Source: Candidatus Nitrosopelagicus sp. (GTDB taxonomy: Archaea > Thermoproteota > Nitrososphaeria > Nitrososphaerales > Nitrosopumilaceae). Taken from it: a stretch of DNA of 41,871 nucleotides. The DNA lies in the NCBI GenBank assembly GCA_028345965.1, contig JAOMEP010000009.1, positions 1-41,871 of the forward strand, read 5' to 3'. The position numbers and the translations under genes were made by a program. Positions 408-41,871 of the stretch are shown piece by piece. Every line of letters begins with the position of its first letter. The first letter of the stretch is position 1. The notes under the pieces are model-generated. The model saw only the letters and a program-made list of their open reading frames with translations, had not been told where the DNA came from and searched no databases.

Positions 408-1204
408 GTCAAGAAAAAACTATAGCTATAACACGTTCAAAAGATGATTCTGAAGAATTTATTCAACTAATTACAAAATATAATGCAACCCCAATCACAC
501 TTCCAACTATTGAACTTGTCAGTAAAGGGGAAAAAATTGTCGATGATTTTTTAACATCTGTTAAAGCCGATAATCCAGATTATTCTGTATTTATGAGTTC
601 AAAAGCTGTAAAATTATTAATTGAGAGTTCTAAAAAAGTCTCAAAATTTGAAGAATTAAGATTAGCAATTACTAATACTATTGTAATTGCAGTTGGTCCT
701 AAAACTAAAGAAGCATTAGAAGATGAAGACATTAAGGTTTCATACATGCCAACAAGATATTCTTCTGTTGGTGTTGGTGAGGTATTTACAAAATTAAATG
801 CTGTTGGAAAAAAGGTAATTGTTCCTAGAAGTGGTGCATCTACGCCATTCCTAAAAGATCTTCTTGAAAAAATTGGATTAGAAATTATCGAATTATACCT
901 TTATGATGTTTGTGCATTTAGAGATACTTCTCAATGGAATGAATTTAGATCTCTTTTTTCACAAAATTCCGTGGACGGAATTATCTTTACCAGTGCATCT
1001 TCTGTTAGAGCATTTTTTGAAATAATGACTAAAGATTTTGAACATTCTCAACTTTTAGAAAATTTACAAAAAACTAAGGTAATATCAATTGGCCCATTCA
1101 CTGCAGATGAATTAAAGAAATTTGATGTACAAAATATCATTGCAGATGTTCATACCGTAGCAGGTTCTGTTGATGTCATTGTTAATGAATTATCGTTAGC
1201 TTAA
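404..1204 (+). CDS. hemD: Uroporphyrinogen-III synthase
   Basis: About 266 residues, typical length for HemD, which closes and inverts ring D of hydroxymethylbilane to make uroporphyrinogen III. Visible family features are the N-terminal ITRSKDDSEEF, the central FMSSKAVKLL, VGPKTKEAL, and the second-domain IIFTSASSVRAFFE followed by ISIGPFTADEL, matching the two-domain HemD fold. I chose the ATG at 404 because it forms a 4-bp ATGA overlap with the cobA stop; an in-frame ATG at 395 is the alternative. The product feeds SUMT, encoded just upstream. Sequence conservation in HemD is generally low, so the call rests on motifs plus neighbourhood. Confidence 0.9.
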   Translation: MSQEKTIAITRSKDDSEEFIQLITKYNATPITLPTIELVSKGEKIVDDFLTSVKADNPDYSVFMSSKAVKLLIESSKKVSKFEELRLAITNTIVIAVGPKTKEALEDEDIKVSYMPTRYSSVGVGEVFTKLNAVGKKVIVPRSGASTPFLKDLLEKIGLEIIELYLYDVCAFRDTSQWNEFRSLFSQNSVDGIIFTSASSVRAFFEIMTKDFEHSQLLENLQKTKVISIGPFTADELKKFDVQNIIADVHTVAGSVDVIVNELSLA

Positions 1205-1208
1205 CCTA

Positions 1209-1224
1209 TTTAGGCTAGGCTAAA
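1209..1224. promoter_or_regulatory. Near-palindromic operator candidate upstream of sufB
   Basis: TTTAGGCTAGGCTAAA is symmetric at 14 of 16 positions and contains TTAG-N6-CTAA. It resembles the inverted-repeat layout of DtxR/IdeR metal-regulator boxes (known consensus TTAGGTTAG-S-CTAACCTAA), but that resemblance is only partial. It ends 12 bp before the sufB TATA-like box. A similar element sits at 41594-41607 in front of another Fe-S gene. A role in iron or Fe-S control is inference. Confidence 0.6.
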
Positions 1225-1235
1225 TTTCCTCGGAC

Positions 1236-1243
1236 TTTTATAA
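1236..1243 (+). promoter_or_regulatory. TATA-like box of the suf operon
   Basis: TTTTATAA is centred about 25.5 bp before the sufB ATG, the spacing seen at many leaderless genes in this window. No Shine-Dalgarno sequence lies between it and the ATG, consistent with a leaderless message. Confidence 0.65.
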
Positions 1244-1264
1244 TAACAACGTTGTATTTTATCT

Positions 1265-2665
1265 ATGGCAACAGAAAATTTTGACATGGATTATTCCAAG
1301 TATGATTTCAAAGACTCTACTGAAATGTATGTTCACTTGAGCAAAAAAGGTCTTTCAAAAGAAACTGTAATTGGAATTAGCAAAATGAAAGATGAGCCAC
1401 AGTGGATGCTTGATTTTAGGTTAAGATCTTATGAAGCATTCATGAAAAGACCTATGCCAAATTGGGGTGCAGATCTCAGTCATATTGATTTTCAAAATAT
1501 TTACTACTATGCTAAAGCATCTGAAAAAACTGAAAAGAATTGGGATGATGTTCCTGAAGATGTGAAAAATACATTTGATAAACTCGGTATTCCAGAGGCA
1601 GAAAAGAAATTCCTTGCCGGAGTTGGAGCGCAATATGAATCTGAAGTAGTTTATCATAGTTTGAGAGAAGATTTAGCAAAACAAGGTGTGTTATTTTTAG
1701 ATACTGATAGTGCTCTAAAAGAACATCCGGAAATATTCAAAAAATACTTTGGAAAAATGATTCCTCCTGAAGATAATAAATTTGCCGCATTAAACAGTGC
1801 AGTATGGAGTGGTGGTTCATTCATCTACATTCCTCCTGGTGTTAAAGTTGACATGCCATTACAAGCTTACTTTAGAATTAACGCAGAAAATATTGGTCAA
1901 TTTGAAAGAACACTAATCATTGCTGATGAAGGTTCTGAAGTTCATTACATTGAAGGATGTACTGCCCCAGTCTATTCATCTGAATCATTACATTCTGCTG
2001 TGGTAGAACTTGTTGCACACAAAGATGCAAAATTAAGATACACAACAATCCAAAATTGGAGTAATGATGTATACAATCTTGTCACTAAACGTGCTTATGC
2101 ATATGAAGGTGCATCAGTTGAATGGATTGATGGTAACATTGGAAGTAAAATTACAATGAAATATCCTGGAATCTATTTGATGGGTCAAAAAGCATATGGT
2201 GAAACACTTTCAATTGCTTTTGCAGGAAAAGGTCAACATCAAGATACCGGTGCAAAGATGGTTCATCTAGCACCTAACACGACATCTAAAGTTACTTCAA
2301 AATCTGTTAGCCGTTCTACTGGTCGTTCAACTTACAGAGGATTACTCAATGTTGCAAAAGGTGCAACTAATGTAAAATCTACTGTTAGATGCGATGCCTT
2401 ACTATTAGATGAAACATCAAAAACTGATACTTATCCATATATGGAAATTAACCAAGAAGATGCAACTATAACTCATGAAGCTACAGTTGGAAAAATTGGT
2501 GATGATCAAATCTTCTACTTGATGACTCGTGGATTCTCTGAAGAAGAAGCATTAACTCTAATTGTTAATGGATTTATGGAGCCTTTCACAAAAGAACTCC
2601 CAATGGAATATGCAGTAGAATTAAACCGACTCATCAAATTAGAGATGGATAATTCAGTCGGTTAG
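1265..2665 (+). CDS. sufB: Fe-S cluster assembly scaffold SufB
   Basis: 466 residues, normal SufB length. SufB is the scaffold of the SufBCD complex on which cysteine-derived sulfur and iron are built into clusters in the cytosol. The protein has the N-terminal helical region followed by the long right-handed beta-helix domain: [34 protein letters not shown], and the C-terminal [31 protein letters not shown] and [14 protein letters not shown]. The ATG at 1265 lies about 25 bp after a TATA-like box, so it is probably leaderless and first in the operon. The partner ATPase SufC is not encoded next to it. Confidence is high for family and start. Confidence 0.97.
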
Positions 2666-2687: not shown

Positions 2688-4085
2688 ATGGAACAAAAGC
2701 TATCCTCAATTGAAAATTCTTTAGTTGAAGAAATATCTTCATCAAAAAATGAACCTGAATGGCTCAAAGAATATAGAAAAAATTCATTGAATATCTATAA
2801 TGAACTACCTGCTGAGGTATCTCCACTTTATGGTAAATATACCGATGCAAAACGTATGGATCCTGATAAGGTCTCACTATCAACAATTTCTAATTCTAAA
2901 CTACCTGACTTTCTCTCAAAACGTGTTGAAGAAGTAAAAAAAGAAAACGGATTGATACAAGTAGGAACAAATATCATTTCTACTAACTTATCTGATGAAT
3001 TAAAATCCAAAGGAGTTATTGTCTCATCTATAGATGATGCATTAAAACAACATCAGGATTTAATAGAAAAAACAATCAAATCATCAAATTCTAATGAAGA
3101 TAAATACACTGCATTAAACAATGCGGCATTTAATTCTGGACTTTTTGTTTACATACCAAAAAACCAAATTATTGATGAACCAATTCATCTATTTTCTTGT
3201 CTATCTGATGATGGTTTATCTACAATATCTAGAAATATCATAATCGTTGAAGATAATGCCAAAGCAAACCTTGTTCAAGAATTATACTCTCCTCAAAATG
3301 GGCAACAGCAGGCATACCTAGAATTAATGAATACTTCAGTTGGCGCAAATAGTAGTCTTGATGTAACATCACTTCAAATGATGGATCAATCGTCAATTAA
3401 TTTCTCCACACGAAGTTCACACCTTGCACAAGATTCAAAAATTAATTGGTATCTTGGACTCTTTGGCGCAATGTTGTCTAGATATAGAATTGATTACCAC
3501 CTTAATGGAACTGGTGCTGTTGCAACTGATTCTGAAGTTGTATTTGGAAATAATGAACAATCTTTTGATCTAAATACAATTGTAAATCACAATGAAAAAT
3601 CTACTGAAGGAAAGGTTGTAGAAAAATCAATTTTAAAAAATAAATCAAAATCATTGTTTAAAGGAATGATCAAAATCAATGAAAACGCCGCTCATTCAAA
3701 TTCATTCCTTTCTGGTCGTTCTATTTTGTTAGACAAGGATGCAAAATCTGACGCAATTCCTGGATTAGAGATTCTCACAAACGATGTAAAAGCAACACAT
3801 TCTGCATCTGTTGCACAAATGGATGAAGAACAATTATTCTATCTAGGAACACGTTGCTTAAGTAAACCTGAAGCTGAAAGAATTATTGTAGAAGGATTTT
3901 TGGAACCTATGTCACGTTCAATGTCTTATCAAGTACGTGCTTGGATTGCATATCTTATCGAATCAAAGTGGGAAGGAAAAGAATTATCAATTAACAACGA
4001 TGAACAATTGAAAGCATTAGTTGAGGTTGAAGAAACTCGATATAATGAAAATGCTGAAATTGAACAACACTACAAATATCGGTGA
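2688..4085 (+). CDS. sufD: SufD-like Fe-S assembly protein (SufB/SufD family)
   Basis: 465 residues. It has the SufB/D beta-helix fold: FVYIPKNQIIDEPIHLF, NIIIVEDNAKANLVQEL, SLFKGMIKINENAAHSNSFL, and the C-terminal ATHSASVAQMDEEQLFYL and AERIIVEGFLEP. It lacks some SufB-specific sequence, so it is best read as SufD, the heterodimer partner of SufB. It starts 22 bp after sufB; GTGAT upstream of the ATG can pair with the end of 16S rRNA (complement of the usual GGAGGTGAT). The exact division of labour with SufB in archaea is not shown by sequence. Confidence 0.93.
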   Translation: MEQKLSSIENSLVEEISSSKNEPEWLKEYRKNSLNIYNELPAEVSPLYGKYTDAKRMDPDKVSLSTISNSKLPDFLSKRVEEVKKENGLIQVGTNIISTNLSDELKSKGVIVSSIDDALKQHQDLIEKTIKSSNSNEDKYTALNNAAFNSGLFVYIPKNQIIDEPIHLFSCLSDDGLSTISRNIIIVEDNAKANLVQELYSPQNGQQQAYLELMNTSVGANSSLDVTSLQMMDQSSINFSTRSSHLAQDSKINWYLGLFGAMLSRYRIDYHLNGTGAVATDSEVVFGNNEQSFDLNTIVNHNEKSTEGKVVEKSILKNKSKSLFKGMIKINENAAHSNSFLSGRSILLDKDAKSDAIPGLEILTNDVKATHSASVAQMDEEQLFYLGTRCLSKPEAERIIVEGFLEPMSRSMSYQVRAWIAYLIESKWEGKELSINNDEQLKALVEVEETRYNENAEIEQHYKYR

Positions 4086-4091
4086 AATCAA

Positions 4092-4400
4092 ATGGCTGAT
4101 TGGATAACCGCGTGTAGTACTGATAGTTTAGGTCAAGGTGAAATGTTTAGTTTTGATCATAATGAAAAGAAATTACTATTAACAAACATGAATGGAAAAA
4201 TCTTTGCTACTGATAGAATATGCACACATGCAGAAGCCGATTTAGCTAATGGAATATTATCTGAAACTGGTCTCACGTGTCCTTTACATCTCTCCGTATT
4301 CAAAATTGATGATGGCGTACCTCAAAACCCCCCTGCCGAAGACCCATTACAAACTTACAGAACAAAAATACAAGATAATAACATCTTGATTGAGGTATAA
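4092..4400 (+). CDS. Rieske-type [2Fe-2S] ferredoxin
   Basis: 102 residues, the size of soluble Rieske ferredoxins. The two cluster-binding boxes are complete: C44-x-H46 in ICTHAEA and C63-x2-H66 in TCPLH, so one iron is held by two cysteines and the other by two histidines. There is no membrane anchor or signal peptide, so it is a cytosolic electron carrier. It lies between sufD and sufS; GGTGA at the sufD stop serves as its ribosome binding site. Related small Rieske proteins occur with suf genes elsewhere, and an electron-delivery role in cluster assembly is plausible. The redox partner is not identifiable. Confidence 0.93.
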   Translation: MADWITACSTDSLGQGEMFSFDHNEKKLLLTNMNGKIFATDRICTHAEADLANGILSETGLTCPLHLSVFKIDDGVPQNPPAEDPLQTYRTKIQDNNILIEV

Positions 4401-4402
4401 TT

Positions 4403-5647
4403 ATGCAATCAACTGCTGACGCTTTCGAAGATCTAAGAAAAGATTTCCCAGTCTTAAACAGGCGTGTCAGAGATAATAAGAAATTAGTATATTTTGATAA
4501 TGCAGCAACTACTCAAAAGCCTAATCAGGTTATAGATGCAATTTCTGATTATTATCAGAACTATAATTCAAATATTCATCGCGCTGTACATGCTTTGGCT
4601 GAAGAGTCTACTGAAGCCTTTGAAAATACTAGAGATATAGTAGCAAAATTTCTAAACGTTGAAGATTCTAGAGAAATTATATTTGTTAGAGGTACAACCG
4701 AGGGTATCAACTTAGTTGCATATGCTTGGGGTCGTGATAATGTAAAAGAAGGTGACATTATTGTTACTACTGAATATGAACATCACTCTAACATTGTTCC
4801 ATGGCAATTACTTACCCAAGAAAAAAAGGCACAACTAAAATACATTGACATTGATGATAACGGAGAATTAATGCTTGATCAATTGGATGATTATCTTTCA
4901 ACTGGAAAAGTAAAACTTGTAACATTTAGTCACATGTCAAATGTTTTGGGAACAATTTCACCTGTTGAAGAAATTGTTTCAAAATGTAAAAATGCTGGAG
5001 TAAAAGTTTTGATTGATGCTGCACAATCCGTACCACACATGAAAGTTAATCTAAATGAAATCGGTTGTGATTTCTTTGTATTTTCTGGTCATAAGATGTT
5101 AGGTCCAACAGGCGTCGGTGTTTTATGGGCCAAAAAAGAAGTTCTTGAAAAAATGAGTCCTTTCCTTGGAGGTGGTGATATGATTCGTGAAGTTCACAAA
5201 TATGAGACAACATGGAATGATTTACCATACAAATTTGAGGCTGGAACTCCAAATATTGCTGATGTAATTGGATTTGCTAAAGCAATAGAATATCTTGAAA
5301 AAATTGGAATGGACAATATCAGAAATCATGAATTAGAATTAACAAAATATGCTCTTGAAGAAATGAAAAAGATTCCAGGTCTTACATTGTATGGCACAAA
5401 AGAACCTGAAAAACGTGGAGGTGTTATTTCATTTAATTTTAATAGTGTACACCCTCATGATGTTGGAACCATAATTGATAAAGACGGTGTTGCAATTCGT
5501 TCTGGTCATCATTGTGCACAAGTATTAATGGAAAAACTAAATGTCGCAGCCACAAACCGTGCAAGTTTCTACATCTACAATACAAAAGAAGAAATTGACG
5601 TACTAATCGCAGCATTACAAAATGTAGCAAAGGTGTTCAAACTATGA
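4403..5647 (+). CDS. sufS: Cysteine desulfurase SufS
   Basis: 414 residues, group II cysteine desulfurase: PLP enzyme that removes sulfur from cysteine and holds it as a persulfide. The N-terminal YFDNAATTQKP, the PLP region EYEHHSNIVPW, the Schiff-base lysine K231 in FSGHKMLGPTG, and the persulfide cysteine C371 in RSGHHCAQ are all present. The RSGHHC context is typical of SufS rather than IscS. GAGGT about 7 bp before the ATG is a good ribosome binding site. Its 3' end overlaps sufU by 4 bp (ATGA), coupling the sulfur donor to its acceptor. Confidence 0.97.
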   Translation: MQSTADAFEDLRKDFPVLNRRVRDNKKLVYFDNAATTQKPNQVIDAISDYYQNYNSNIHRAVHALAEESTEAFENTRDIVAKFLNVEDSREIIFVRGTTEGINLVAYAWGRDNVKEGDIIVTTEYEHHSNIVPWQLLTQEKKAQLKYIDIDDNGELMLDQLDDYLSTGKVKLVTFSHMSNVLGTISPVEEIVSKCKNAGVKVLIDAAQSVPHMKVNLNEIGCDFFVFSGHKMLGPTGVGVLWAKKEVLEKMSPFLGGGDMIREVHKYETTWNDLPYKFEAGTPNIADVIGFAKAIEYLEKIGMDNIRNHELELTKYALEEMKKIPGLTLYGTKEPEKRGGVISFNFNSVHPHDVGTIIDKDGVAIRSGHHCAQVLMEKLNVAATNRASFYIYNTKEEIDVLIAALQNVAKVFKL

Positions 5648-6093
5648 GTGGAGATCCAATATACACTGAAATGATTATAGAATATTCTCGTAATCCTTCT
5701 AACTTTGGAAAAATAGCTGATGCACACATACATCAACATGACGCAAACCCATTATGTGGGGATACCATAGATCTATATCTTAACATTGAAGATAACAAGA
5801 TTAGTGAAGTAAAGTTTGATGGACACGGATGTGCAATTTGTATGGCATGCTGTTCAGTCTTAACTGAAATGATTAAAGGAAAAAATCTTGATGACGTCAA
5901 GAAATTTGATAAAGATGAATTATTATCTGAATTAGGTCTACAACATCTCGTCAAAACAAGTCCTGTTCGAATTAAATGTGCATTATTGTCTCTTAAGAGT
6001 CTGAAATTTGGAATCTATTCGTATTTTGTTGATAAGATGAAAGATTCTGAATCTGCAGGAAACTTAAATGAAGAGGCTGCTAATCTATACTAG
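5644..6093 (+). CDS. sufU: SufU-type scaffold / sulfur acceptor with extra cysteines
   Basis: 149 residues, IscU/SufU fold. The metal-site residues C38 and D40 (PLCGD), C63 (GHGCAI) and C112 (RIKCALL) are in place. SufU proteins take sulfur from SufS, with zinc or a cluster at this site. The helix after C63 reads GCAICMACC, with cysteines at 66, 69 and 70 where the family usually has small residues such as GCAISxASAS; this is unusual. The start overlaps the sufS stop (ATGA). Whether it acts as zinc-dependent transferase (SufU) or cluster scaffold (IscU) cannot be decided from sequence. Confidence 0.93.
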   Translation: MSGDPIYTEMIIEYSRNPSNFGKIADAHIHQHDANPLCGDTIDLYLNIEDNKISEVKFDGHGCAICMACCSVLTEMIKGKNLDDVKKFDKDELLSELGLQHLVKTSPVRIKCALLSLKSLKFGIYSYFVDKMKDSESAGNLNEEAANLY

Positions 6094-41593: not shown

Positions 41594-41607
41594 TTAGTTC
41601 GGACTAA
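41594..41607. promoter_or_regulatory. TTAG-N6-CTAA operator candidate upstream of the Mrp/ApbC gene
   Basis: TTAGTTCGGACTAA, 5-bp arms (TTAGT/ACTAA). Its centre is 48.5 bp from the ATG at 41649, exactly the distance of the sufB element from the sufB ATG, and it ends 11 bp before the TTTAAA at 41619-41624. Confidence 0.6.
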
Positions 41608-41618
41608 GTAAAGAATAT

Positions 41619-41624
41619 TTTAAA
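41619..41624 (+). promoter_or_regulatory. TATA-like box of the Mrp/ApbC gene
   Basis: TTTAAA is centred 27.5 bp upstream of the ATG at 41649. Confidence 0.55.
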
Positions 41625-41648
41625 TGAAGAGAATGAGTAATCTGCACA

Positions 41649-41871
41649 ATGGTTGGTGTAGATCAAGTATTAGAAAAACTGGCAACAGTCGTTGATCCTG
41701 ATTTGAAAAAAGATATCGTATCAATGGGTATGATTAAGGATTTAGAATTAAACTCCGGTGATCTTAAATTCACTTTAGAACTAACCACCCCTGCTTGTCC
41801 ATTCAATGATGAGATTGAAGCTGATGTAAGAAAAGCTATTGATGACATTGATGGCATTGAAAATTTTGATT
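41649..41871 (+). CDS. Mrp/ApbC (NBP35-like) Fe-S carrier ATPase, N-terminal part only
   Basis: 74 codons remain before the window ends. MVGVDQVLEKLATVVDPDLKKDIVSMGMIKDLEL, then LELTTPACPFNDEIEADVRKAI, is the MIP18/DUF59 domain (with the conserved Cys in TPACP) that precedes the P-loop ATPase in Mrp/ApbC proteins. These carry Fe-S clusters to targets. The ATPase part is outside the window, so a stand-alone DUF59 protein cannot be excluded. It is leaderless by TATA spacing and shares an operator-like element with sufB. Confidence 0.82.
   Translation, partial: MVGVDQVLEKLATVVDPDLKKDIVSMGMIKDLELNSGDLKFTLELTTPACPFNDEIEADVRKAIDDIDGIENFD

Follow-up and report, generated by a model that had tools for sequence, protein, structure and literature searches.

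A palindrome in front of sufB and a second copy of the same TTAG-N6-CTAA pattern in front of an Fe-S carrier gene raise the question of whether the two sites belong to a shared iron or Fe-S regulon and, if they do, which protein reads them. We analysed both sites in the window, the whole stretch of 41,871 nucleotides of DNA that carries them, and then the corresponding promoters of related genomes.

Box-Bearing Promoters in the Window

The initial annotation described a 14/16 palindrome at 1209-1224 (TTTAGGCTAGGCTAAA), and a recount of its matches to its own reverse complement gave the same value; the second TTAG-N6-CTAA is an exact match at 41594-41607, where it had been placed. The centres of the two boxes, 1216.5 (ATG at 1265) and 41600.5 (ATG at 41649), are indeed equally far, 48.5 bp, from their start codons, and a TATA box lies just 3′ of each box, as had also been claimed. 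The features of the two loci are as follows:

662..675, + strand: third exact copy of the pattern, within hemD (inside ORF 395-1204)
1196..1209, + strand: distal sufB box, TTAGCTTAACCTAT, one mismatch to the pattern, directly abutting the proximal box
1210..1223, + strand: predicted promoter-proximal DtxR-type box of sufB, TTAGGCTAGGCTAA, exact match, centre 48.5 bp from the ATG
1236..1244, + strand: sufB TATA box, TTTTATAAT, from sequence; TATA position conserved
1243..1255, + strand: second palindrome, at the predicted sufB start site, ATAACAACGTTGT, family form ATAAC-N3-GTTAT
1265..2665, + strand: sufB (Pfam SUFBD_core, E 1.7e-85; NCBIfam sufB TIGR01980, 722.7 bits)
2688-4085, + strand: SufD-like gene (Pfam)
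4092-4400, + strand: Rieske ferredoxin (Pfam)
4403-5647, + strand: SufS-like gene (Pfam)
5644-6093, + strand: SufU/NifU_N (Pfam)
41594..41607, + strand: predicted DtxR-type box of apbC, TTAGTTCGGACTAA, exact match, centre 48.5 bp from the ATG
41618..41625, + strand: apbC TATA box, TTTTAAAT, from sequence
41649..41871, + strand: N-terminal 74 aa of an apbC/NBP35-type Fe-S carrier (FeS_assembly_P, E 3.1e-19), a gene cut by the contig end

The profile matches to SUFBD_core and TIGR01980 on one side and to FeS_assembly_P on the other agree with the earlier assignment of both genes to Fe-S biogenesis. The window's SufB is 97–100% identical to Candidatus Nitrosopelagicus records, and the apbC fragment is 96% identical to a 361-aa protein, complete in the sister genome G019, with FeS_assembly_P and NUBPL-type P-loop NTPase matches. 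Judged from spacing and strand, the genes at 2688..6093 (+) appear to be the remainder of the suf operon. From the TATA distance the sufB start site is predicted to give a leaderless or almost leaderless transcript.

The view that there is no other intergenic copy held for exact matches, since the third lies inside hemD and, being within ORF 395-1204, was put down to chance, but a one-mismatch box that abuts the sufB site had been missed. This distal box is offset by 14 bp from the proximal one and overlaps the hemD stop codon, so that the sufB promoter carries a 28-bp pair of boxes. The 3 exact copies in the window (at 662, 1210 and 41594) compare with 0.71 expected from dinucleotide shuffles, and 4 of 100 such shuffles also gave 3 copies, a weak excess for the window alone; one-mismatch copies were not enriched (23 in the window against 24 expected). 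The motif by itself is thus not enriched in the window, and the signal rests on position and conservation.

A separate element, ATAAC-N3-GTTAT, lies between the sufB TATA box and the ATG and is kept in Nitrosopumilus, in Nitrosotalea and in two Nitrososphaerales loci (seen at 1243-1255 of the window, in L036-L073 and in L074 and L075); it is present in the last two even though they have no TTAG box. The promoter of a NitT/TauT-type ABC transporter gene in two genera (L339, L340) has it together with a TTAG box. At the predicted sufB start it might serve as a further operator or as an initiator element.

Gene-Blind Searches and Conservation in Relatives

Genome-level counts were obtained from pattern searches plus the stretches around the matches. 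The window's own genome (G000, 1.0 Mb, 72% complete) has 26 exact sites, most of them within ORFs, and promoter-positioned sites precede sufB, apbC, sufC (TIGR01978; centre exactly 48.5 bp from the start), a ferredoxin-NADP-reductase-like (FNR) gene (44.5 bp), a multicopper oxidase gene (a pair of sites separated by 19 bp) and the gene for a zinc-ribbon protein (58.5 bp). In the complete sister genome G019 we counted 45 sites, with the same promoter list plus a zinc-containing-type ferredoxin gene with its box at exactly 48.5 bp. Sites within ORFs, the majority in both genomes, were taken as chance. The G019 count is inflated by TTAGAGGGTGCTAA, which occurs five times at 15-bp steps inside an 854-aa ORF (L201 3008-3111, repeat-coding DNA). 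In the same genome three TTAG-N6-CTAA copies lie within 77 bp upstream of a cold-shock protein gene (L191 6735-6811), and on the other side of this cluster we saw no matching iron gene.

Position separates the Fe-S genes from this background. In G019 four sites lie 47.5–48.5 bp before a gene start where ~0.1 would be expected (P ~4e-6, with 1,400 genes assumed), and the four genes, sufB, sufC, apbC and ferredoxin, are all Fe-S genes. About seven G019 genes have a box 40–60 bp upstream, and 4/7 are for Fe-S assembly or ferredoxin (P 1e-6 to 1e-4, for 20–60 such genes assumed). A gene-blind search of twelve genomes with the pattern box-N39..43-ATG gave 114 matches against 131 in a backward control, that is, no bulk excess; among the 43 of these 114 that have a TATA box in place, sufC accounts for 12, ferredoxin for 12, sufB for 2 and apbC for 1 (nine of the 12 ferredoxins were named by script, and those of G006, G017 and G019 come from promoter alignments or the same promoter block). 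Promoter-positioned copies, which the initial annotation proposed to look for at 40–60 bp from starts, are thus found mainly at Fe-S genes.

Sites before Thi4, TusA, SepF and a small ORF beside cspA occurred in one to three genomes and were left out of the regulon; single-genome sites such as those of Thi4, TusA and SepF are possibly chance. Upstream of a SepF-like gene (L344, with equal matches in G014 and G030) TTAGTTAAAACTAAGGAAGAG... is conserved in three genera, and no TATA box is in place there.

Conservation is strongest at sufC, where an exact box lies 47.5–51.5 bp from the start in 48 of 50 Nitrosopumilaceae genomes; the unselected N6 columns of this box hold 0.93 bits per column against 0.22 in the left flank. 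The ferredoxin box is intact in 20 of 29 usable promoters, with the consensus TTAGTTnnRACTAA. This interior differs from that of the sufC box (TTAGGAtnAGCTAA), so that a common reader for both is not certain. At sufB the site has been kept in the same place in relatives, as TTAGCTNTGCCTA or TTAG-N6-CTAA: throughout Nitrosopumilus-like genomes it has the form TTAGCTNTGCCTA, mostly as an abutting pair (conserved in L406-L411, L413 and L422), and the logo, TTAGCT.AAgCTA, has visible conservation in its left flank. In Nitrosotalea-like genomes the sufB box is shifted further upstream, and in the two Nitrososphaerales loci L074 and L075 no TTAG box was seen before sufB. The sufB element is kept across the family in altered form. 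Conservation of the apbC box stops at the window's genus (L214, L215), and that of the FNR site likewise does not reach beyond it. We accordingly rejected apbC as an old partner of sufB: the twin site in front of it is recent, and the sufB box comes from an older, family-wide set. Both sites of the proposed pair are real; the pairing itself changes, one member being genus-specific and the other half of an abutting pair.

Positioned, conserved sites thus stand at sufB, sufC and ferredoxin, and these boxes are not chance. The weak excess in the window and the lack of enrichment of one-mismatch copies are what coincidental palindromes at two Fe-S genes would give, but this explanation is refuted for the three promoters by the conservation at sufC and ferredoxin and by the gene-blind searches, in which the same genes recur, and for the original two sites we consider it extremely improbable. 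What all of these promoters share is a conserved operator-like box just upstream of BRE/TATA.

A Candidate Regulator

The initial annotation noted that the shape recalls DtxR/IdeR boxes, and the geometry is exactly that of the 14-bp single-dimer IdeR/DtxR site, for which the consensus TTAGG-N4-CCTAA was proposed after EMSA had shown single-dimer binding (PMC8464063). Against this actinobacterial consensus the boxes of sufB (TTAGG-CTAG-GCTAA), sufC (TTAGG-ATTA-GCTAA) and FNR (TTAGG-CTAA-TCTAA) each match 9 of 10 specified bases and that of apbC matches 8 of 10. The full 19-bp two-dimer box, TTAGGTTAGSCTAACCTAA, was not found among our sites, each of which is either an isolated 14-mer or part of a pair with an offset of 14 or 19 bp.

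Two DtxR proteins occur in the family, DtxR1 and DtxR2, and the first is encoded in the window's genome as follows:

L035 1243-1707, - strand: DtxR1, 154 aa (PF01325; C38 of G000)

DtxR1 scores 59.4 bits against PF01325 (Fe_dep_repress winged-helix; curated cut-off 26) and matches the structure chains of DtxR and IdeR at 3.5e-10 and weaker. In an alignment to 1p92 its TEMYL and C..EH segments fall in register and the site Met10, Cys102, Glu105 and His106 is present; the corresponding iron-type ligands of DtxR1, Met21, Cys110, Glu113 and His114, are conserved in the ortholog alignment. Residues at the positions of the ancillary-site ligands His79 and His98 of DtxR are not His in DtxR1, and the protein stops after the dimerisation domain, with no C-terminal SH3-like domain like that of DtxR/IdeR. 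Many short DtxR/MntR proteins also lack that domain. With the paralog counted in, DtxR1 was found in 43 of 43 good genomes at E<=0.001. No box was seen in front of DtxR1's own gene, giving no sign of autoregulation, and a search of viral contigs found no DtxR1. DtxR2 (155 aa) is nearly universal and of MntR type: it has Glu at the DtxR Cys102 position, its best structure chain is 6kta MntR (1.8e-26), and its AEGIEHH aligns to the VEGIEHH of the Glu99/Glu102/His103-type MntR site.

Losses within g5, a reduced genus, bear on which of the two reads the box. In G026 DtxR1 and the sufC box (TTAGGTCGAACTAA) are both intact. In G042 DtxR1 is a pseudogene with several stops and the sufC box is broken by one base (TTAG to ATAG), and in G004 DtxR1 is deleted between kept neighbours and the sufC box is absent while the flanking promoter/TATA region is kept. 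Two of the 50 genomes have no sufC box, and they are the same two in which loss of DtxR1 is proven; as members of one genus they count as one lineage, and the pattern covers three genomes of that genus.

The same genomes speak to DtxR2 as the reader, with a manganese/iron balance regulon that has suf and ferredoxin as side targets. Such a regulon would suit the near-universal presence of DtxR2 and its closeness to MntR structures, the 19-bp tandem boxes that two genera have upstream of NRAMP (L341, L343), and the state of G046 (one contig, 99%) and G028, in which DtxR1 and the neighbouring TrmB are missing, yet the sufC sites are intact and DtxR2 is present; this last case may reflect deletion as a block, loss in recent times or a gap in the assembly. 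However, G015 (99% complete) has no DtxR2 match and yet keeps the sufB, sufC and ferredoxin boxes, and G004 and G042 retain DtxR2 although they have lost the sufC box along with DtxR1. We regard DtxR2 as an unlikely reader, and DtxR1 as the probable one.

A shared iron/Fe-S regulon had been proposed from the two sites of the window, and it is supported by the gene-blind matches at Fe-S genes, the conservation at sufC (48/50) and ferredoxin (20/29), the IdeR/DtxR geometry of the box, the presence of DtxR1 and the co-loss in g5. The element is likely to be a 14-bp one-dimer site for a DtxR/IdeR-family regulator, with DtxR1 the best candidate, that marks a small Fe-S regulon. The core of this regulon across the family would, with the same likelihood, comprise the sufB operon, sufC and ferredoxin, joined in the window's genus by apbC and the FNR-like gene.

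Proposed Action at the Promoter

In the mechanism that we propose, DtxR1 loaded with Fe2+ at Met21, Cys110, Glu113 and His114 would bind the box just upstream of BRE/TATA, one dimer to a single box and two dimers to abutting boxes, and from this fixed position would help to recruit TBP/TFB, so that cells would produce Fe-S assembly proteins and ferredoxin while they have iron and reduce this output when they lack it. DtxR1 binding and Fe2+ as the signal are inferred. Activation is moderately favoured over repression because of the position of the box upstream of the promoter: C. glutamicum DtxR activates ftn, dps and sdhCD from sites so placed (PMC1382209), and in bacterial genes that are repressed the IdeR box lies over the -10 region or the start site (PMC10317159).

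With the same site and regulon, iron-loaded DtxR1 might instead act as a repressor that, under plentiful iron, covers BRE and silences suf and ferredoxin. DtxR/IdeR proteins usually repress their targets (PMC10317159), and a DtxR dimer, which occupies more than 14 bp, could extend as far as BRE; against this, the box is clear of both TATA and the predicted start, unlike those of bacterial repressed genes (PMC10317159), and occupies the position linked with activation in C. glutamicum (PMC1382209). We consider repression the less probable mode, if a serious one.

DtxR1 might also sense something other than plain Fe2+. Cysteines 110, 125, 145 and 146 are invariant in 31 of 31 sequences (L035 and orthologs L146-L175), and the DtxR metal site explains only Cys110, which leaves room for an Fe-S cluster sensor on a DtxR scaffold with the cluster bound by these four residues. 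We think this unlikely. Were it true, transcription of suf and ferredoxin would respond directly to Fe-S status through DtxR1, and this protein would be a counterpart of IscR/SufR that evolved independently in ammonia-oxidising archaea.

A reading with no metal response at all takes the box as an upstream core-promoter extension (an extended BRE or a TFB-paralog site) of strongly expressed genes. The fixed TATA distance and the conserved stretch between box and TATA (ATTTCGTCGG, TTTTGTCTAG) would suit it, as would the report that no protein of N. maritimus is expressed more highly than ferredoxin (PMC6776035). But only about seven genes of the complete G019 have the box 40–60 bp upstream, the box is palindromic and occurs also as abutting or 19-bp-spaced pairs, it precedes metal genes (NRAMP, multicopper oxidase) as well, and it was lost with DtxR1 while TATA stayed; we hold this explanation to be very unlikely.

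Further Box-Bearing Promoters

Tandem TTAG-N6-CTAA boxes with a 19-bp offset precede the NRAMP genes in the two genera named above and a multicopper oxidase gene in other genera (L016 2098-2130, L192, L342). Other genomes extend the gene set to NRAMP, multicopper oxidase and possibly ferritin. In G003 a ferritin-like gene (L349, reverse strand) has a box centred 44.5 bp before its ATG. In four genera an abutting pair lies 47.5 and 61.5 bp upstream of a gene for a 91–94-aa membrane protein (MNAW.KFW.WYE.KILGS...; L334-L337) that has no Pfam match.

Significance and Comparison with Known Systems

Ammonia-oxidising archaea, which rank with the ocean's most abundant cells, rely on Fe-S proteins, and the present result identifies for them a box, a set of core genes and one candidate regulator. 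In metagenomes the box can serve as a sequence marker of iron-status regulation, and it would represent an IdeR-type single-dimer site placed in front of an archaeal core promoter. Boxes of TTAG-N6-CTAA shape and archaeal DtxR regulons are already known; what appears to be new, and was not found in the literature searched, is a DtxR-type regulon with a core of Fe-S assembly and ferredoxin in ammonia-oxidising archaea. Our literature search for thaumarchaeal DtxR or the regulation of iron/Fe-S supply returned nothing on point, the main archaeal DtxR comparison being outside its reach, and found no transcriptome of ammonia-oxidising archaea under iron limitation.

The closest known systems are those of IdeR and DtxR in Actinobacteria, whose box (TTAGGTTAGSCTAACCTAA) has the same 14-bp dyad geometry as the window's boxes and whose proteins resemble DtxR1 in the DtxR fold, judged by sequence, and in the Met/Cys/Glu/His ligands. 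A suf operon with a predicted DtxR site is known from C. jeikeium (JK0985; PMC1382209). The present system differs in its archaeal promoter, with the box 5′ of BRE/TATA at a fixed distance, in its single or abutting boxes in place of a four-repeat 19-bp box with a 5-bp overlapping offset, and in a candidate regulator with no SH3-like domain and with three additional invariant cysteines. Archaeal DtxR regulons (FetR/MntR/ZntR; Idr1/Idr2 of Halobacterium) likewise use palindromic boxes, and NRAMP is also among the targets here; however, those regulons, the former as described by Leyn and Rodionov in 2015, reportedly serve mostly metal uptake, whereas the conserved core here is Fe-S assembly and ferredoxin. 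The SufR and IscR regulons of bacteria are analogous in their target set, since they too control Fe-S assembly genes; SufR is a DeoR-type and IscR an Rrf2-type protein, both unrelated to DtxR proteins and with other boxes. Finally, the position of the palindrome is like that used by position-dependent regulators such as SurR of Pyrococcus, which activates from a palindrome that lies upstream of BRE/TATA; the protein family and the box are different.
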